From: Pectinatus cerevisiiphilus
Lineage (GTDB): Bacteria > Bacillota > Negativicutes > Selenomonadales > Selenomonadaceae
NCBI RefSeq assembly: GCF_004341685.1
Contig: NZ_SMAA01000002.1
Location: forward strand, 124,001-188,000
Direction: 5' to 3'
Length of the DNA stretch: 64,000 nt
In this document: in pieces, positions 11,118 through 58,475 of the stretch
Numbering within the stretch: the first letter of the stretch is position 1
Layout: each line of letters begins with the position of its first letter
Made by a program: the position numbers and the translations under genes
The notes under the pieces: generated by a model
What the model was told of the DNA's origin: nothing
The model's database searches: none
The model's input: the letters and a program-made list of their open reading frames with translations, nothing else

Positions 11118-11147
11118 TTGACTATAAGTACAATGATTATATATAAT
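11118..11147 (+). promoter_or_regulatory. Sigma-70-type promoter for the ZTP riboswitch transcript
   Basis: TTGACT (11118-11123) and TATAAT (11142-11147) are separated by 18 bases, about 25 bases before the riboswitch aptamer. Confidence 0.65.
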
Positions 11148-11170
11148 ACAATATATAAAAGTGAATATGT

Positions 11171-11272
11171 AATGCAGGACTGACGGATTGTGTGGAAATG
11201 ACCACATGGACTGCATTATAGTGATAAGCCGACCGTCTGGGCAGGAGAAGTATCAGCTCAGGCGGTTTTTTT
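11171..11272 (+). promoter_or_regulatory. ZTP (pfl-motif) riboswitch with intrinsic terminator
   Basis: The architecture fits the ZTP/ZMP aptamer: P1 (AATGCAG 11171-11177 with CTGCATT 11211-11217), an internal loop with GACTGACGG on one side and GGA on the other, P2 (TGTGG/CCACA), a linker, and the hallmark CCGACCGTCTGGGCA at 11229-11243. That last segment also forms one arm of a terminator (11232-11242 with 11256-11266, two G-U pairs) followed by seven Ts. Ligand binding would hold the 5' arm in the pseudoknot and allow read-through. The regulated gene is the OFA carrier 58 bases downstream, linking it to one-carbon/folate starvation. Confidence 0.82.
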
Positions 11273-11329
11273 ATGCGCTTTTGCTGTAATATTTCTCTTT
11301 GATGTTTTATAAAAAGGAGAAGATATATT

Positions 11330-12532
11330 ATGAGGAATCGGTGGCTTATCGCTTTATCAGCAGTTGGTATACATATTTGTATTGGCAGCGTATACGCATG
11401 GAGTGTGCTTACTAAGCCGATAATGCAGCAGATGGGGCTTTCGTTAAAGGAAACTACATGGGCTTTTTCTATAGCAATTTTATTTTTGGGTATGTCTGCC
11501 GGATTTTTAGGCAGCTTTGTAGAAAAATGTGGACCGCGAAAAAGCGGGCTTATTGCAATGGTTTTCTTCGGCACTGGAATGTTCGGGACTGCCTTGGCTA
11601 TTAGTATGCACAGCTTGGCGTTACTCTACCTTTTTTATGGTGTGATCGGTGGTATTGGGCTTGGCACAGGGTATATTACGCCAGTATCAACCTTAGTAAA
11701 ATATTTTCCTAATAACCGTGGTTTTGCCACAGGGCTTGCCATCATGGGGTTTGGCTTTGCCAGCCTCATTGCCGGGCCACTCATGCAATATTTGGCTGCC
11801 CATTATGGTTTGGTAAATAATTTTTTATTTTTGGGTTGCGCTTATATGGTGATTATAGCAGCATCGTCACTTTATTTGAAACCGCCGGTTGAAACGGCAG
11901 CAGGAAAGAATGTAATAAAAAGAAATGAAAAAGGTTTAAAGGCAAGCCAGGCGTTTCATACATGGCAGTTCGGTGCTTTGTGGTGGATCTTTTTTGTGAA
12001 TATAACTTGTGGTATAGGTCTTCTTGCGGTGGCTTCACCCATGGCGCAGGATGTGGTGAAAATGGATCCAACGGCAGCTGCATCGATGGTGGGGATAATC
12101 GGTTTACTCAATGGCTTGGGAAGAATATTTTGGTCCACTGTATCGGATTACATAGGGCGCGGTATGACGTATGCGCTGTTTTTTATCATAGAAATGATTG
12201 CTTTTTGGCAACTGGCGGCAATAACAGATGAATTCCTTTTTCAACTTGTAATTTTTATAATAATAACATGCTACGGTGGTGGGTTCTCCTGTATGCCTGC
12301 CTATTTGAGCGATATATTTGGTACACGCCAGCTTAGTGCTATCCATGGGAGAATTTTGACTGCGTGGGGAATAGCTGGAATTGTAGGTCCGGTGTTGGTT
12401 TCATGGTTGCGTGAAGTCACTAATAGCTATGCAGTGACGTTGCAATTTTTTGCTGGCTGTTTTATATTGAATTTTATAGTAGCAATGGTATTAAAATATA
12501 AAGGAACATCATTAGATAAGAGAAAAGTATAA
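11330..12532 (+). CDS. OFA-family MFS carrier (oxalate/formate antiporter-like)
   Basis: This 400-residue, 12-span MFS protein has the OFA family signature at its N-terminus (GIHICIGSVYAWSVLTKPI) and the typical GTGYITPVSTLVKYFPNNRG motif. Characterised OFA members exchange oxalate and formate or carry related monocarboxylates. Control by a ZTP riboswitch, which signals low 10-formyltetrahydrofolate, suggests formate as the relevant cargo here. That is inference from context. The ATG at 11330 follows AAAAGGAGA. A strong terminator follows the gene, so it is monocistronic. Confidence 0.88.
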   Translation: MRNRWLIALSAVGIHICIGSVYAWSVLTKPIMQQMGLSLKETTWAFSIAILFLGMSAGFLGSFVEKCGPRKSGLIAMVFFGTGMFGTALAISMHSLALLYLFYGVIGGIGLGTGYITPVSTLVKYFPNNRGFATGLAIMGFGFASLIAGPLMQYLAAHYGLVNNFLFLGCAYMVIIAASSLYLKPPVETAAGKNVIKRNEKGLKASQAFHTWQFGALWWIFFVNITCGIGLLAVASPMAQDVVKMDPTAAASMVGIIGLLNGLGRIFWSTVSDYIGRGMTYALFFIIEMIAFWQLAAITDEFLFQLVIFIIITCYGGGFSCMPAYLSDIFGTRQLSAIHGRILTAWGIAGIVGPVLVSWLREVTNSYAVTLQFFAGCFILNFIVAMVLKYKGTSLDKRKV

Positions 12533-12894: not shown

Positions 12895-14238
12895 GTGAAA
12901 AAAAATTACAAATGGATAATTTTAATCACTTGTATTTTAGTGTATTCCTCAGCAAATCTTGTACGATTAAATTACACTGGAATAGCAAGTTACTTAATGA
13001 CAGAATGGCAAATTGGTAAACCTGAACTTGGCGTTCTGGGGGCTGCATTTTTTTATGCATATGCATTAGGTCAAAGTTCTTGGGGAAGTCTGACTGATTT
13101 ATTCGGTGGTAGAAAAATCATACCATGCGGTGTGTTTATTACTGCGATACTTATGGGAGTATTTGCTATTACGGATAATTATCATCAGGCTGTTGTAGTG
13201 CGAGCTTTATTAGGATTTGTTGGCGGAGCATCTTTTGTACCTTGTGTTGCGGTTATTGGGCGTTGGTTTGGTAAAAAACAGCGTGGCTTAGCAATGAATT
13301 TATTTTCTGGACCGGGTGGTGGACTAGGTGAAGTATGGTCTTTCTTGTTATTACCGATTATGGCGTTGTTTTTAAATCAAGGTGTAACTGTTTTTGGTAT
13401 GAGTTCATGGCATGCAGCTACTTTTATTATGGGAATAATAATTTTAGTGATTGCAATAGTGGCATATGGATTGTTGCGTTCTGATCCAACCGAATTATAT
13501 ACGGATCAGACAGATACTCAAATAACAAAAGAGAATAAATCTGTGCACCAAAAGAATAATTATAAAACAATTATATTTTCTGCTTTAAAAAATCCGTCTT
13601 TTTGGATTTTTGTATTGATTTGGCAGGGATTTACTGTTTGCTTGCGTTTAATTCCAAGTTGGCTTCCGCTTTATGCAGCTACTTTTTATCAGGAAATGGC
13701 TAATATGAGTAAGGCAGAAGCAATGATTGCTGGTGGGGCAATAGCTTCTTTCTATGTTGCTGGTAGAATTATTGGTCCACCATTTGTAGGAAAATTATCA
13801 GATTGGTTACTGAGTAAATATAATATTTCACGTATAGTAATATTAATAGCTAGTTTTAGTATAACGCTTATTTGTTCGTTCTTTTTAACATTGCATATTA
13901 CTTCTGCGGTTATTTTGGTAGTAATAGCATTTATTCTTGGAACAGGAATAAATTTACTATCAATATTAAATACTGTAATTGCTGAAACGTGGTCCGTTGA
14001 AACATCAGGAACTTTGAACGGAGTAGCCAATACTATAACACAATTCATTGGTGCAGCTTCATTGTCATACAGCGGATATATGGCAGTAAATTTCGCTATT
14101 AAAGATGGTGGATTTAACTTAGAATATCGTGGTATTTGGTTTTTAGTGATGATTTCTGTGATTATAGCGGTATTAGCATCTATTTTTGCATTTTTTTATA
14201 ATAAAAAACGGGAAAAAATGCAAAAAATGATTTACTGA
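12895..14238 (+). CDS. MFS transporter, anion/organic-acid type
   Basis: The 447-residue protein has about 12 membrane helices and MFS motifs (GSLTDLFGGRKIIP between helices 2 and 3). It resembles the OPA/ACS (phosphate ester or anion:cation symporter) branch, which imports organic anions. The start is GTG 12895 behind GGTGAGA. It is the first gene of a 6-kb, visibly AT-rich stretch and is followed within 15 bases by a DUF6282 hydrolase, so it probably delivers that enzyme's substrate. Codon choice (many A/T third positions) differs from the OFA gene just upstream, a sign of possible acquisition. Confidence 0.85.
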   Translation: MKKNYKWIILITCILVYSSANLVRLNYTGIASYLMTEWQIGKPELGVLGAAFFYAYALGQSSWGSLTDLFGGRKIIPCGVFITAILMGVFAITDNYHQAVVVRALLGFVGGASFVPCVAVIGRWFGKKQRGLAMNLFSGPGGGLGEVWSFLLLPIMALFLNQGVTVFGMSSWHAATFIMGIIILVIAIVAYGLLRSDPTELYTDQTDTQITKENKSVHQKNNYKTIIFSALKNPSFWIFVLIWQGFTVCLRLIPSWLPLYAATFYQEMANMSKAEAMIAGGAIASFYVAGRIIGPPFVGKLSDWLLSKYNISRIVILIASFSITLICSFFLTLHITSAVILVVIAFILGTGINLLSILNTVIAETWSVETSGTLNGVANTITQFIGAASLSYSGYMAVNFAIKDGGFNLEYRGIWFLVMISVIIAVLASIFAFFYNKKREKMQKMIY

Positions 14239-14252
14239 AGGAGTAAATGAAA

Positions 14253-15107
14253 ATGGATTATAGTGTTGAAAAAGATCGTATCCCAGAACTTTTGGAAGGC
14301 GTTATTGACACGCATATACATACCAATCCAGATGTACGTCTTAGAAGCATCAATGATATAGAATTAGCTAGAGAGGCATTGAGAGTTAAAGCGAAAGCTG
14401 TTGTTATTAAATCACATTTAGTTCCCACAATGGATAGGGCTAAAATAGCTGAGTTTGTTGTTCCTGGGATACATGTTTTTGGTGGTATTGTGTTAAATTC
14501 TTATGTCGGAGGATTGAATGTGGCGGCCGTAAATAATGCAATTGATATGGGGGCGAAAATTATATGGCTACCAACAGCTGATTCTTTTCATGAAAGAAAA
14601 TTAAAAGGTAAAAGTGATGGAATTGTAACTGTAAAAAATAATAAAATTTTACCCAAATTAGCACAAATTCTAGAAATAATCGCAAAAAAAGATGTTATAT
14701 TAGCCACAGGGCATTTGTCATTTGAAGAAAATATTGTAGTAGTTGAGGCAGCAAAAAAAATAGGAGTGAAAAAGATAATAGTTAATCATCCAGAGTGGTG
14801 GTCTATAAATATGTCTATAGATGAACAAAAAGAATTATCACAATATGGAGTATTCTTTGAACGGTGTTATGCTACACGACCTCCAGGAGAAAAGTATAAA
14901 AAAAATTTTGAGAAGAATCTTGATGCTATAAATAAAGTCGGTTATGAAAGTACTATTTTGGCTACAGATGGAGGACAGGTTGAAAATCCTGCATGGAGTG
15001 AAGCTTTGGCGGAAAGTATCGGATTTATGCTTGATCATGGTATTCCTAAAAATGTTGTTGATAAAATGACTAAAGAATATTCAGCAAAGCTTTTGGGATT
15101 ATTTTAA
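14253..15107 (+). CDS. DUF6282-type metal-dependent hydrolase
   Basis: The 284-residue protein looks like an amidohydrolase-fold, PHP-like enzyme of the DUF6282 family. It has an N-terminal DTHIHTNPD metal site, VIKSHLV, a LATGHLS motif, VNHPEWW and a C-terminal LATDGGQVENP. These His/Asp positions match a binuclear metal hydrolase, but no substrate is known for the family. ATG 14247 is only 3 bases from AAGGAG, while ATG 14253 is 9 bases away, so the latter is preferred. It follows the MFS gene closely and precedes the aconitase-like gene, implying a shared catabolic pathway. Confidence 0.8.
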   Translation: MDYSVEKDRIPELLEGVIDTHIHTNPDVRLRSINDIELAREALRVKAKAVVIKSHLVPTMDRAKIAEFVVPGIHVFGGIVLNSYVGGLNVAAVNNAIDMGAKIIWLPTADSFHERKLKGKSDGIVTVKNNKILPKLAQILEIIAKKDVILATGHLSFEENIVVVEAAKKIGVKKIIVNHPEWWSINMSIDEQKELSQYGVFFERCYATRPPGEKYKKNFEKNLDAINKVGYESTILATDGGQVENPAWSEALAESIGFMLDHGIPKNVVDKMTKEYSAKLLGLF

Positions 15108-15258
15108 AAATGTATTGATAGGTATTAATGATAATAAAGTTTAGATGGAAGATGAACTATGGAATCATTAATAACAAGATTTTTACAGAAAATCTAAAAT
15201 GGGTTTTGTAAATTGGTAGATTTTGTCAGCAAAATTTATTATACGGGGGAGAATACAT

Positions 15259-17526
15259 ATGAATATTTTTAAAAACGGTGCCTACCTAATTAATGGGGAA
15301 CAATTAATTCCTGAAGAACAAATAAAAGATGATAGTAAGGTAGATGGGAAAAAAGAAACAGCATATAAAAATACAATAGCATATCACATTTTAGAAACAC
15401 ATAATACTAGTAATACGATGGCAGACTTGCAAATTAAATTTGATGCATTAGCATCTCATGATATAACTTTTGTGGGAATTATACAAACTGCATTGGCAAG
15501 TGGATTAAAAGAATTTCCTATTCCCTATATACTCACTAATTGCCATAATAGTTTATGCGCTGTGGGTGGAACTATAAATGAAGACGATCATATCTTTGGT
15601 TATTCAGCAGCAAAAAAATTTGGAGGTATATTTGTACCACCACACCAAGCGGTAATACATCAATTTATGCGTGAAATGTATGCCGGTTGCGGGAAAATGA
15701 TTTTAGGTTCGGATAGCCATACTCGTTATGGCGCATTGGGGACAATGGCAATAGGCGAGGGTGGTGGTGAATTAGTAAAACAACTATTAAGCCACACATA
15801 TAATATACAATATCCTAAGATTGTCGCAATTTACCTTAAAGGAACACCTCGTCCTGGAGTAGGACCACAGGATATTGCCTTAAGCATAATCGGTAAGGTT
15901 TTTGCATCAGGTTATGTAAAAAATAAAGTTATGGAATTTGTTGGCCCTGGTATACAAAATCTTTCTATGGATTTTAGGAATGGTATTGATGTCATGACTA
16001 CGGAAACTACTTGTTTGAGTTCCATATGGTGTACAGACAGTAAGACGAAGAAATTCCTTGAAATACATGGGCGCGGAGCCGATTATAAAGAATTAAGACC
16101 AGGTAATACGGCTTATTATGATGGCGCAGTGGAAATTAATTTATCAGAAATAAAACCGATGATTGCCATGCCTTTTCATCCGAGTAATATTTATACTATT
16201 GATGAAGTTAATGAAAATACAGCTGATATTCTTAATATAGTGGAAAAGACAGCTAAAGAACAATTAGCTAATAAAAAACTTAATTTGGGTTTACAAGACA
16301 AAATTGTTAATGGTCGTTTTAAAGTAGATCAAGGTATCATTGCTGGTTGTGCAGGGGGAACATTTGAAAATATAATGAACGCAGCAAGCTCTTTAAAAGG
16401 CGCTTCAGTAAAAGATTTCCCACTGAGTGTATATCCGGCTAGCCAACCTATTTTTCTTGATTTATTGAAAAAGCATGCAATAGAAGATTTGGCTGTAGCG
16501 GGAGCTACTATTCGTACTGCTTTTTGTGGACCATGTTTTGGTGCGGGAGATGTGCCAGCTAATCAGGGATTTAGTATAAGGCATACGACAAGAAATTTTC
16601 CAAATCGAGAAGGTTCTAAGCCTAATGAAAATCAGATCGCTTCAGTTGCATTAATGGATGCTAGATCAATTGCAGAAACGGCAAAAAACGGAGGGTATCT
16701 GACAGCAGCTACAGATTCAATAGAAGAACTTCCAGAATATAATTTCGATGATACAGTATATAAACATAAAATATATAATGGATATTTACATAAACATATT
16801 GAAGAAAAATTAATTTCTGGTCCTAATATTGTCCCTTGGCCGAAAATAAGAAAGATGCCAGAAAATCTTTTGCTTAAAGTTTGTGCGGTTATCCATGACG
16901 CTGTAACCACAACTGATGAACTTATTCCATCGGGGGAAACTTCATCATATAGATCTAATCCGTTACGCCTTGCTGAGTTTACATTATCACGTAAGGTGCC
17001 CGAATATGTTAAAAATGCAAAAGCAGTACAAAAAATAGAAAATATACGGCAGAAATATTTAACTGATGATATTTCCCTAAATGAAGTACAACAATATTTT
17101 CCTAAAATATTACAAGATGGACCAGATATAAAAAACACAGGGATAGGTAGTGTTATATTTGCGATAAAACCTGGTGATGGTTCTGCTAGGGAGCAAGCTG
17201 CATCTTGTCAAAGAGTGTTAGGTGCGGATGCCAACATTGCAGTTGATTATGCAACTAAAAGATATCGTAGTAATTTGATTAATTGGGGAATAGTGCCATT
17301 TACTATTGCTGGAAAAGATATAAATAAGATAAGACTTAATGATCAGATATATGTTAAAGGTATAAAACAAGCATTAAGCCAAGGAATGGAATCAATTAAT
17401 GGTATTATATGGCATGATGAAAAAGAATCGGAAAAAATTGTATTGTATTTGAGCAATCTTTCACATTCTGAACGGGAAATTTTACTATCGGGATGCCTTA
17501 TAAACCATTATGCCAAACATGAATAA
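15259..17526 (+). CDS. Aconitase-family hydratase (YbhJ-like)
   Basis: This 755-residue protein has the aconitase fold. The signature [12 protein letters not shown] is at about residues 150-161 and the 4Fe-4S cysteines are C364 (IAGCAGG), C423 and C426 (FCGPCFG). A C-terminal swivel domain carries [14 protein letters not shown]. Length and order fit E. coli YbhJ, a predicted hydratase of unknown substrate, better than true aconitase. It likely adds water to, or removes it from, a di- or tricarboxylic acid. The ATG at 15259 follows GGGGGAG. Upstream genes are a hydrolase and a carrier; downstream are a DcuC-type carrier and citrate-lyase-like genes. Base composition is AT-rich. Confidence 0.88.
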
Positions 17527-17681
17527 TAATTACTAAAAGGATATTAGTAATTATTGAAGTCCGAAAATAGATTTAGAGATAATGTGTTCTAAGATATATT
17601 TTAAATAGAGCAGAGAGTTTAAAAGAATAGTAACAGCAACATAAGTCTTTATTGATATTAAATAGGTTAGGATATTAAAAG

Positions 17682-17730
17682 CACGACAAATGCATAGATA
17701 TTAAAAATTTGTATACGTGCATTTGTCGTG
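17682..17730. repeat. 13-base perfect inverted repeat in the hydratase-DcuC gap
   Basis: CACGACAAATGCA (17682-17694) and TGCATTTGTCGTG (17718-17730) are perfect complements with a 23-base spacer. The motif ATATTAAAA occurs just before the first arm, inside the spacer and just after the second arm. No T-run follows. The 374-base gap holds no credible gene; this repeat is its only clear structure, so an operator or a processing hairpin is possible. Confidence 0.5.
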
Positions 17731-17900
17731 AATATTAAAATTTTGCGAAAATCATTACTTAAGGACTATTGGATTTAGGGTTTAAATGTTGTTTTGGTTA
17801 GATTTTATTATTAGTAACCATCTTAATATAAATGATCTTCCAAAGTAATAAAACCATAAAATTTGAAATATTGTTTATTCTATGGAAAGAAGTGATAATT

Positions 17901-19175
17901 GTGATATTAATGACTATTTCAGGAATCTTAATTGTAATAGGAACGATATATTGTTTAATAAAACGATATGAAACAAGATTAGTATTATTTTGTTCAGGTC
18001 TTTTAATGACATTTATTGGTGGAAATCCAATGGGAACAATGCAGGCATTTTCTCATGCTATGTTAGAAAGTAAATTATTTGAATCAATTATTGCTGTTAT
18101 GGGATTTGCCATGGTAATGAAATTGACTGAATGTGATAAACATTTGATAAATCTTTTAATAAAGCCACTGCGCAAAGCTGGAACTTTTCTTATACCGGCA
18201 GCAGTGCTTGTCACTTTTTTTATAAATATATCGATTACTAGTTCAGCAGGATGTTCTGCAGCAGTGGGAGCAATATTAATACCGCTTATGATAGCAGCGG
18301 GCATTCATCCAGCTATTGCCGGTGCTGCTATTTATGCGGGAACTTATGGTGCTATGTTTAATCCTGGTTATCCGCAGGTGGCGTTGATTGTGAGTGTATC
18401 TGATTCTAATCCAGTAGCAGTGGTAGCTAACCATTTTTATCCATTATTGTTATGTGGAGTTATTGGAGCAATGAGCCTTTGGGTAGTGGCTAAAATACAT
18501 CATGAGGACAAAGGCTATAAATTACAAGGAGAGATTGTTAAGCAAACAGAAGATTTCCATGTAAAACTATCACACGCAATTGTACCGCTTGTTCCTATTG
18601 TGATACTTGTATTAGGAAGTATGAATATAGTTCCTATTTTTAAACCATTATCTATTTCACATGCAATGATAATAGGTGTCTTTTGTGCATTCTTGATAAC
18701 AAGAAAAAACCCACAGGATATTTCCAAAGAATTTTGGAAAGGCGCAGGTAATTCTTTTGGTTCAGTTTTTGGTATTATTATCTGTGCGCTTGTATTTGTT
18801 AATGGATTGACTTCAATTGGACTTATTCAGCAATTAATTCAGACAATGATAAATATACCATCAGTTGCTAAAATAAGTTCGGCGATAGGCCCATTTTTAT
18901 TAGGAGTTATGAGTGGTTCTGGTGATGCTGCAGCAGTTGCATTTAACAAAGCGGTAACTATCCATGCAGCAGATTTTGGTATTTTACCAATGAGTATGGG
19001 AAGTGTAGTTGCTATTACTGGTGCATTAGGTCGGACGATGTCACCGGTAGCAGGGGGGATGATAATATGTGCTACCTTAGCAGGTGTTTCACCAATGGAA
19101 ACAGCAAAAAGAAATGCACCAGGGATGATAATAGCTACCTTGGCAATTATGGTAATAATGTTATTTATAGAGTGA
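17901..19175 (+). CDS. DcuC-family anaerobic C4-dicarboxylate transporter
   Basis: The protein is about 425 residues, highly hydrophobic, with the DcuC pattern: an N-terminal CSGLLMTFIGGNPMG, ITSSAGCSAAVGAILIP, YAGTYGAMFNPGYPQVALI and a C-terminal LGVMSGSGDAAAVAFNKAV and GALGRTMSPVAGG. DcuC carriers export succinate or exchange C4-dicarboxylates during anaerobic growth. GTG 17901 behind GGAAAGAAG, or ATG 17910, is the likely start; an earlier ATG at 17832 has no ribosome-binding site. It lies between the hydratase and the lyase genes, so its cargo may be the pathway's substrate or product. Confidence 0.88.
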   Translation: MILMTISGILIVIGTIYCLIKRYETRLVLFCSGLLMTFIGGNPMGTMQAFSHAMLESKLFESIIAVMGFAMVMKLTECDKHLINLLIKPLRKAGTFLIPAAVLVTFFINISITSSAGCSAAVGAILIPLMIAAGIHPAIAGAAIYAGTYGAMFNPGYPQVALIVSVSDSNPVAVVANHFYPLLLCGVIGAMSLWVVAKIHHEDKGYKLQGEIVKQTEDFHVKLSHAIVPLVPIVILVLGSMNIVPIFKPLSISHAMIIGVFCAFLITRKNPQDISKEFWKGAGNSFGSVFGIIICALVFVNGLTSIGLIQQLIQTMINIPSVAKISSAIGPFLLGVMSGSGDAAAVAFNKAVTIHAADFGILPMSMGSVVAITGALGRTMSPVAGGMIICATLAGVSPMETAKRNAPGMIIATLAIMVIMLFIE

Positions 19176-19219
19176 GATAAAAGAATATGAATCATTGACG
19201 ATAAAAAATAGTTATTTTA

Positions 19220-19251
19220 TTTAATTATTATTAGAATTTATAATAATTAAA
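19220..19251. promoter_or_regulatory. 12-base perfect inverted repeat upstream of citD
   Basis: TTTAATTATTAT (19220-19231) and ATAATAATTAAA (19240-19251) are perfect complements with an 8-base spacer, 46 bases before the citD ATG. It could be an operator for the local LysR regulator, but all-AT repeats arise easily in DNA of this composition. Confidence 0.3.
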
Positions 19252-19297
19252 GATACATTTTTAGAATTATAGAGATGTTATATGAGGAGAAGACGCT

Positions 19298-19576
19298 ATG
19301 ACAAAAATATTAGCAAAATCTGCTAAGGCAGGATTTGAAGAAAAAAATGATCTTGTGGTCGAAGTTTCTCCACTGCAAAACGGTAGCGGAGTGGTAATTG
19401 ACCTACAATCACCTGTAAAAAATCAATATGGCAGGCATATAGAAGCATTGATTAAGGATACGGTAACAGCCGAAGGCTTTTTTGATGTTCAGGTTAATGT
19501 ACTAGATAAAGGGGCATGGGATTATACAATAAAGGCAAGGACAATTGCAGCACTTGAAAGGGGTATGAAGCAATGA
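19298..19576 (+). CDS. citD: Citrate lyase acyl-carrier-like subunit, prosthetic-group serine replaced
   Basis: The 92-residue protein matches CitD, the gamma (acyl-carrier) subunit of citrate/citramalate lyase, along its length (NQYGRHIEALIKDT, VLDKGAWDYTIKART). In known CitD the phosphoribosyl-dephospho-CoA group is attached to Ser14 within the motif LESGD/LESSD. Here the aligned stretch is FEEKND: the serine position is lysine (K16). A serine at residue 8 is the only nearby alternative. Either attachment moved or the subunit is structural. The ATG follows GAGGAG and the stop overlaps citE by 4 bases. No citC, citX or citG is in the window. Confidence 0.88.
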   Translation: MTKILAKSAKAGFEEKNDLVVEVSPLQNGSGVVIDLQSPVKNQYGRHIEALIKDTVTAEGFFDVQVNVLDKGAWDYTIKARTIAALERGMKQ

Positions 19577-20481
19577 ATGATCCTAAAACGAGATTACGTC
19601 GAACAATGATGTTTGTCCCCGGGAACAGTCCTAAGATGATTAATTCAGCAGATATTTATGGAGCGGACAGTCTTATGTTCGATGTGGAAGACGCAATAGC
19701 CATAACGGAAAAAGATACGGCAAGGCATCTTGTGGCCAATGCTTTAAAAACACTTAAATTTCATTCGGAAACGGTTGTCAGAATAAACCATCCCACACAA
19801 ACTCCTTTTGGCATGGACGATTTGAAAGTAATATTGCCATCAAAACCTGATATGATACGTTTACCCAAAGTGGAAGATGTATCCGAGGTTCAACTGATAA
19901 CTGATGAGATAGAAAAGGTTGAAAAAGAAAATGGCTGGCCGGAAGGCACCATAAATATTATCGGCGCGATTGAAAGCGTTAAAGGCCTTTATAATGTTAG
20001 AGAAATCTGTCAGCAGCCACGTTTAATTGCGATTGCGTTAGGCGCCGAAGATTTTATAGCCAATTTAAAAACGCAACGGACGAAAACAGGCATTGAACTT
20101 TATTATGCACGTTCGCAAATATTAATGGCGGCACGGGATGCAGAAATTCAATGTATGGATACCGTTTTTTCTGATGTAAAGGATATGGAAGGTTTTGAAC
20201 GTGAAGTGACAAACAGCCGTGACATGGGGTTTGACGGCAAGTCTGTTATTCATCCAAAACAAATAACGGCAGTCCATCGTATTTATACACCAAATGATAA
20301 ACAACTGACACATGCACTTAAAGTCCTTGCAGCCTTTGAAGATTCGCTTAAGAACCATAAAGGGGTATTGGCTGTCGACGGTAAAATGATTGATGGGCCA
20401 ATTGTTGTCAGGGCACAGCGTATTGTCGACCAAGCAAAAGCCGCGGGGATTGATGTTGAAAAGAAGAGGGAAGAAATATGA
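19573..20481 (+). CDS. citE: Citrate/citramalate lyase beta subunit (CitE-like)
   Basis: This 302-residue CitE-like protein is a TIM-barrel lyase subunit that cleaves the acyl thioester (citryl- or citramalyl-type) to oxaloacetate or pyruvate plus an acetyl thioester. Expected motifs are present: RRTMMFVPGNSPKM near the start, LMFDVEDAIAITEKD (magnesium-binding acidic residues), RINHP, IGAIESVKG, ALGAEDFIANLKTQRT and SVIHPKQI. It overlaps citD and citF by ATGA at both ends, so the three are translationally coupled. CitE homologues also act on free acyl-CoAs, which matters because the partner CitD lacks its usual attachment serine. Confidence 0.93.
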   Translation: MNDPKTRLRRTMMFVPGNSPKMINSADIYGADSLMFDVEDAIAITEKDTARHLVANALKTLKFHSETVVRINHPTQTPFGMDDLKVILPSKPDMIRLPKVEDVSEVQLITDEIEKVEKENGWPEGTINIIGAIESVKGLYNVREICQQPRLIAIALGAEDFIANLKTQRTKTGIELYYARSQILMAARDAEIQCMDTVFSDVKDMEGFEREVTNSRDMGFDGKSVIHPKQITAVHRIYTPNDKQLTHALKVLAAFEDSLKNHKGVLAVDGKMIDGPIVVRAQRIVDQAKAAGIDVEKKREEI

Positions 20482-58154: not shown

Positions 58155-58475
58155 AATATAATTCCTCCTAAAAATAAAAATAACCCCCGTCCAAAAAAGG
58201 ACGGAGGTTTTGTTTTCCGTGGTGCCACCTAAATTCCCGGCATTATTAATAAACCGGGCACTCAAACGTACATTATAATACGCGTTTCCTGTAACGTGGA
58301 TCAGACGTTTCGGCTTACAGAATCGTTCAGCCTCACTCCTCAAGGATGATTTTCTTCTCTGCTTTGGTTATCGTCTTTCAGCCGGATGACAATTCTCTGT
58401 GAACCTTGGGCAAAGAATACTTTTTCCTATCACGGAATTTTGATTTATGCAATTACAAGTTTACAAAAACTTGAT
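58155..58475 (-). promoter_or_regulatory. T-box leader with AUC (Ile) specifier
   Basis: On the minus strand, stem I has AAAAAGTA and an upper helix UUCUUUGC/GCAGAGAA. The 3' side of the specifier loop reads GAAAAUCAUCCUUGAG, which aligns with the glyQS loop (GAAAGGCAUUCUUGAG), putting AUC (Ile) at the specifier. The antiterminator has the T-box AGGUGGCACCACGG and the terminator has arms AACCTCCGTCC/GGACGGGGGTT. The T-box bulge UGGC would pair with a discriminator G, while bacterial tRNA-Ile usually has A73; this mismatch is unexplained. Uncharged cognate tRNA would switch on the MFS gene. Confidence 0.85.
58170..58209 (-). terminator. T-box regulatory terminator
   Basis: AACCTCCGTCC (minus strand 58209-58199) and GGACGGGGGTT (58192-58182) pair with one G-U around TTTTTT, then a T-rich tract reaches the Shine-Dalgarno site. 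Confidence 0.9.

Follow-up and report, generated by a model that had tools for sequence, protein, structure and literature searches.

What does a riboswitch of the ZMP/ZTP class control when the gene behind it encodes an MFS carrier? The question arises at a locus of Pectinatus cerevisiiphilus that lies in a 64,000-nt window, by which we mean the whole stretch of DNA analysed (NZ_SMAA01000002.1, positions 124,001-188,000 of the forward strand; genome label G000). We regard ZTP-induced import of formate for 10-formyl-THF as the best reading of this locus and as probably correct, formate being the substrate that we infer for the carrier. Below, family counts refer to 151 genomes of the host family and class counts to a wider Negativicutes sample.

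The riboswitch itself is a plain member of the known ZTP/ZMP class (RF01750, the pfl motif). The original prediction, which had recognised a ZTP (pfl) aptamer by its CCGACCGTCTGGGCA signature and its P1 and P2 stems, proposed a search with the Rfam ZTP model as a check, and this search returned a full-model match at 11166-11249 on the plus strand (62.7 bits against a gathering cut-off of 39, E 8.4e-08), the single match in the whole 2.63-Mb genome. The start coordinate first given, 11171, falls 5 nt inside the aptamer. In the fold, P1 pairs 11169-11177 with 11211-11219 and P2 pairs 11190-11195 with 11202-11207; GACGG at 11182-11186 provides the 5' pseudoknot strand, its partner being CCGTC at 11233-11237, and the P3 hairpin (11228-11242) carries the signature (11229-11243), as both the RF01750 and the family alignments place it. 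The folding energy of the 115-nt leader is -45.7 kcal/mol, whereas shuffled versions average -28.3 (z -5.1) and none of 200 is as good. Across 32 aligned family aptamers, 31 of them distinct, 97.2% of the cells in the drawn structure pair, versus 86.1% after shuffling (0/500 as high), and sliding the structure lowers pairing to 30-47%. Two-sided changes affect 9 of the 20 pairs, including one pseudoknot pair, and 7 of the 8 pairs of P1 as drawn. The pseudoknot is 100% paired, its five pairs being kept in all 31 distinct aptamers, with G-C replacing A-U at one pair in 5 of the 31. A model built from the family aptamers, R1, scores the window's copy at 86.7 bits, the window sequence being among those from which R1 was built. 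A chance match is rejected, as score, fold, covariation and conservation all speak against it.

Downstream of the signature, the minimum free energy fold contains an intrinsic terminator at 11231-11272 (stem 11231-11242/11256-11267, with a seven-T run at 11266-11272). Just as originally proposed, the terminator shares the signature strand: 11231-11242 belongs both to its stem and to the P3/pseudoknot strand, so aptamer and terminator are mutually exclusive. A simple terminator scan of the region did not have the hairpin 11231-11267 in its list. For the Thermosinus ZTP switch, excerpts of PMC7337938 describe ZMP/ZTP binding in a way that serves as a model for holding P3 and the pseudoknot and blocking the terminator. 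By analogy with its class, the window's aptamer presumably binds ZMP and its switch is predicted to act in the ON direction. The other parts of the locus, all on the plus strand, are a sigma-70-like sequence, TTGACT-18-TATAAT, at 11118-11147 (11/12 consensus positions), which counts as a consensus match only, since the region holds 11 promoter-like sites against 8.4 expected; a probable ribosome-binding site, AAGGAG, picked out by eye at 11314-11319; and the carrier open reading frame of 400 aa at 11330-12532, the proposed formate importer. Upstream of the aptamer stands a gene for nicotinate phosphoribosyltransferase. The locus shares with the class a full-length match, P1, P2, P3, pseudoknot, signature and overlapping terminator, and what differs from the class is the target gene, an MFS carrier. 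Downstream of the carrier, at 12895-20481, we observed a gene for an MFS transporter by its PF match, then, by eye, amidohydrolase-like and aconitase-like genes, a permease and seeming citrate-lyase subunits. A T-box leader (123.4 bits) lies further along the window on the minus strand, at 58194-58442.

The pairing of this aptamer with this carrier is not a one-off, for it recurs in family, named-genome and class samples. The carrier is encoded in 70 of the 151 family genomes (E <= 1e-60), and an aptamer precedes it in all 70: 64 are found at E <= 0.001 in as many different genomes, four score 34.3-38.0 bits, under the cut-off of 39, and two, with long inserts, were recognised by eye only. Carrier paralogues in two genomes (G039, G010) have no aptamer ahead. 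In named genomes, taking the best 80 of 570 relatives, which include Veillonella, Selenomonas, Megasphaera and Phascolarctobacterium, an aptamer is present at 46 of 80 loci (L202-L246, 45/45, and L254), the weakest at 28.6 bits. A search of other Bacillota for such pairs, which the original prediction had proposed as a check, found them within the Negativicutes, at 46 of 47 loci in this set, and not at the loci of other groups (0/33); the one Negativicutes locus lacking an aptamer match ahead of the carrier belongs to a MAG (L279). The named-genome loci come partly from the same genomes as the family scan, whose aptamers also went into R1. The class sample holds the carrier in 125 of 300 genomes (E <= 1e-100) and in 46 of 97 genera. 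Outside the host family, 60 of its 76 carriers were taken and 59 had readable upstream regions (L320 offers only 52 bases), of which 54 contain an aptamer; the five without are all below 60% identity to the window's carrier. Carriers L365 and L367 have no ZTP aptamer and are both preceded by genes that are PurC-like by resemblance only, one scoring 118.6 bits against a cut-off of 189.9 and the other giving no match at E <= 1e-30. In genus g6 (L185, L186, L187), inserts split the ZTP aptamers, which then score under the cut-off (36.3 bits) or are hidden.

The company that the carrier keeps behind ZTP switches gives a first indication of its substrate. RF01750 has 155 matches in 84 of the 151 family genomes, and 150 of these places were read; one each in G002, G032, G075, G083 and G088 was left out, the carriers of the first four being examined separately. 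The 150 places precede the carrier in 64 cases (carrier start 130-244 nt past the aptamer start), an AICAR formyltransferase-like gene in 60 (NF005492, 711.5 bits in one example), PFL in 14 and other genes in 12, so that the carrier is as frequent a ZTP target as the purine enzyme. By eye, and partly by profile, the 12 others comprise fhs (2), an FNT-family channel (3), a phosphoribosyltransferase with a permease (6) and a tat/ubi cluster (1). The logic of such a regulon is that PFL makes formate, Fhs uses it and AICAR formyltransferase spends the product. The six places with a phosphoribosyltransferase and, by eye, a purine-type permease all lie in genus g16 (L081, L082, L088, L098, L105, L124; PF00156 in the one example scanned) and perhaps represent purine salvage under ZTP. 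The tat/ubi cluster, likewise read by eye (L144, genome G049), has fhs about 4.6 kb further on. Two ZTP aptamers stand in tandem before the carrier at 6 of the 59 readable class loci (L343, L349, L351, L352, L357, L369). In a review (PMC9481103), the number of tandem ZTP cases is put at five.

Gene neighbourhoods point the same way. In one family genome (G036), folD, a ZTP-preceded fhs and the ZTP-preceded carrier lie within 6 kb, with one opposite-strand MFS gene between; in a second (G061), fhs, aptamer and carrier are consecutive on one strand; and in a third (G064), folD and fhs are found a few kb from the carrier. Genus g21 has 14 genomes with a ZTP match, which precedes the carrier in 11 and an FNT-family channel in 3. 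These three (L094, L107, L108; L196, L193, L199) have PF01226 matches of 99-100 bits and no carrier match; they are related genomes, and their FNT gene is at a different locus from the carrier. Replacement of the carrier in place by the channel was not upheld, because the neighbours differ. FocA/FNT channels share with the carrier the proposed substrate and, in these carrier-less genomes, the position behind a ZTP switch, although they are a protein family different from the MFS.

Beyond the Negativicutes, the carrier has no aptamer match ahead of it and mostly stands beside other partners. Among the 33 such loci in the best 80 of 570 relatives, PurT is next upstream in 11 (604.2 bits in one example), an FdhF/YdeP-family gene is near in 13 and FdhD in 12; PurT, FdhF-family or FdhD is near the carrier in 26 and none of them in 7. 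PurT is the formate-dependent GAR formyltransferase. To our knowledge, not every member of the FdhF/YdeP family is a proven formate dehydrogenase; L272 carries a formate dehydrogenase alpha gene (696.9 bits against 666.25). The Bacilli contexts amount to one PurT clade and two formate dehydrogenase groups on the tree, so that the 26 of 33 are not independent and reflect few events. PurT is encoded in 19 of the 33 genomes (E <= 1e-80), which range from 3.6 to 7.1 Mb, with one copy each (one in two pieces), and it adjoins the carrier in 11 of these 19. PurT, FdhF and FdhD are near none of the 47 Negativicutes carriers in the same set. At 15 of the 33 loci, L280:5327-5686 among them, there is a gene for an MpsC-like protein (PF10057 by a scan of one example), which lies between carrier and FdhF-family gene in 13 and before FdhD in 2. 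The 11 PurT loci yielded no purine riboswitch ahead of purT-carrier; SAM riboswitches lie on the opposite strand near purT in two of them.

Taken together, the regulon, the fhs and folD neighbours, the exchange of carrier and FNT channel in g21 and the PurT and formate dehydrogenase contexts outside the Negativicutes suggest that the carrier moves formate. We propose a model in which a shortage of 10-formyl-THF would cause the AICAR nucleotides ZMP and ZTP to accumulate. Their binding would hold the P3/pseudoknot strand of the aptamer and block the terminator, allowing the carrier to be transcribed. The carrier, from an MFS clade close to SfMCT and OxlT, would then import formate, and Fhs (formate-THF ligase) would convert it to 10-formyl-THF, so that AICAR would be consumed. 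The original proposal that formate uptake is induced when 10-formyl-THF is low is in this way supported, solely through gene context. The host's own gene content is consistent with the model: its genome, from an assembly listed as 100% complete, encodes Fhs (906.8 bits) and gave no match for PFL (TIGR01255), FNT or formate dehydrogenase alpha (TIGR01591), whereby Fhs would depend on outside formate, unless the cell has a further source of it. Through GlyA and FolD, serine may offer another route to 10-formyl-THF. Within the family, PFL is found in 26 of the 70 carrier genomes, with no match in the other 44, the window's included (E <= 1e-100), so import is not always the sole formate source. 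The idea of the carrier as a mere substitute for PFL was not upheld, given the 26 genomes that have both.

The protein itself is an MFS carrier (PF07690, 136.8 bits), with MFS_1 the sole domain found and PF01226 (FNT) absent. It had been called an OFA carrier, and here the MFS part of the name stands while the OFA part is loose: TIGR00890 and TIGR04259 both remain under cut-off (190.7 against 374.85 and 149.9 against 335), and the position of the OxlT lysine Lys355 is occupied by Trp346. A canonical oxalate:formate exchanger is rejected on these grounds, that lysine being essential. In the PDB, the AlphaFold2 model (pLDDT 88.9) comes closest to SfMCT (6g9x, Z 52.2) and, level with it, to OxlT (Z 51.6). 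On a tree, drawn with no support values, all these carriers fall in one clade separate from both. The pocket residues V21, Y115, F141, N261, R265, Y315, F319 and L343 are invariant in the 80 named carriers (best 80 of 570), whatever the gene context, and W346 is present in 79 with one gap; in the alignment of the 64 carriers from the family, deviations at the pocket positions occur in one or two rows, including one truncated and one broken copy.

The likeness to SfMCT, the Syntrophobacter L-lactate:H+ symporter, suggests a different function, in which the carrier would import L-lactate (or pyruvate) and the riboswitch would raise the pyruvate supply so that PFL makes formate. The carrier passes NF049980, the NCBIfam equivalog for SfMCT named 'L-lactate MFS transporter' (376.9 against 320), as does a Bacilli member adjoining PurT (L270, 457.1), and SfMCT is one of its two best structural matches. 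The two share a fold, 27% identity, the TM8 arginine and asparagine, the TM4 tyrosine and the TM10 tyrosine and phenylalanine (SfMCT R280, N276, Y119, Y331 and F335). Against this, the 80 named carriers have V, F, L and W where SfMCT has L28, L145, F359 and C362 (W in 79, with one gap), and no residue of the carrier aligns with SfMCT histidine 250. Residues required for SfMCT transport are kept in part, with Y119, N276 and R280 retained and F359 and C362 changed to Leu343 and Trp346; according to PMC6573034, lactate transport by SfMCT was lost in the F359A mutant and fell strongly in C362A. A pocket narrowed by a bulkier side chain would suit a smaller acid. Moreover, PFL has no match in 44 of the 70 carrier genomes, and no use of lactate is known for the PurT and formate dehydrogenase neighbours. 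We consider lactate import unlikely.

Another one-carbon-related small anion, such as glyoxylate, oxalate or glycolate, would agree with the retained TM8 carboxylate-binding arginine (OxlT Arg272, here R265) and with OxlT as a relative that shares the fold and 26% identity. In OxlT, according to PMC10070484, the second carboxylate of oxalate is held by Lys355, a residue that the OFA family conserves. That position is tryptophan in 79 of the best 80 of 570 relatives, with one gap, and the substrate common to PurT, formate dehydrogenase and Fhs is formate, which makes a different anion very unlikely.

The direction of transport presents a further choice, since MFS symporters are able to run both ways, and export or exchange of formate might be read from the 26 of 70 carrier genomes with PFL and the 14 of 150 family ZTP places that precede PFL. 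Yet a switch predicted to be ON when formyl units are short fits a formate importer, and an exporter would deepen the shortage; beside PurT, too, it is an importer that makes sense, and in the window's genome neither PFL nor formate dehydrogenase alpha was detected. We deem export highly improbable, and formate is presumably carried inward. Least credible of all is an OFF switch or a 3' element of the upstream nicotinate phosphoribosyltransferase gene, for although excerpts of PMC9481103 describe tandem OFF ZTP switches, a promoter-like site separates that gene from the aptamer, the terminator takes up part of the P3/pseudoknot strand, and across the genomes read the carrier is constant but its upstream neighbour is not.

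Returning to formate import under ZTP, what appears new at this locus is the target, a widespread carrier labelled 'lactate' in NCBIfam that, to judge from its context, most likely imports formate. Among the open-licence papers listed, none dealt with a ZTP-controlled transporter or with a comparable importer of formate from the MFS, which is weak evidence of novelty. Somewhat less firmly than for the locus itself, we favour the broader view that the carrier founds an unrecognised MFS family of formate importers, unrelated to FocA and concealed under an L-lactate name, which belongs to the ZTP regulon across the Negativicutes and in Bacilli accompanies either the purine gene purT or genes of formate oxidation. 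It is tempting to think that ZTP thus calls in formate from neighbouring microbes in the gut, rumen, mouth or beer. If this is true, the family name of a carrier present in 46 of 97 sampled class genera would be corrected, and the reach of the ZTP alarmone would extend from enzymes to import. Cells that make no formate could then draw on formate released by their neighbours.
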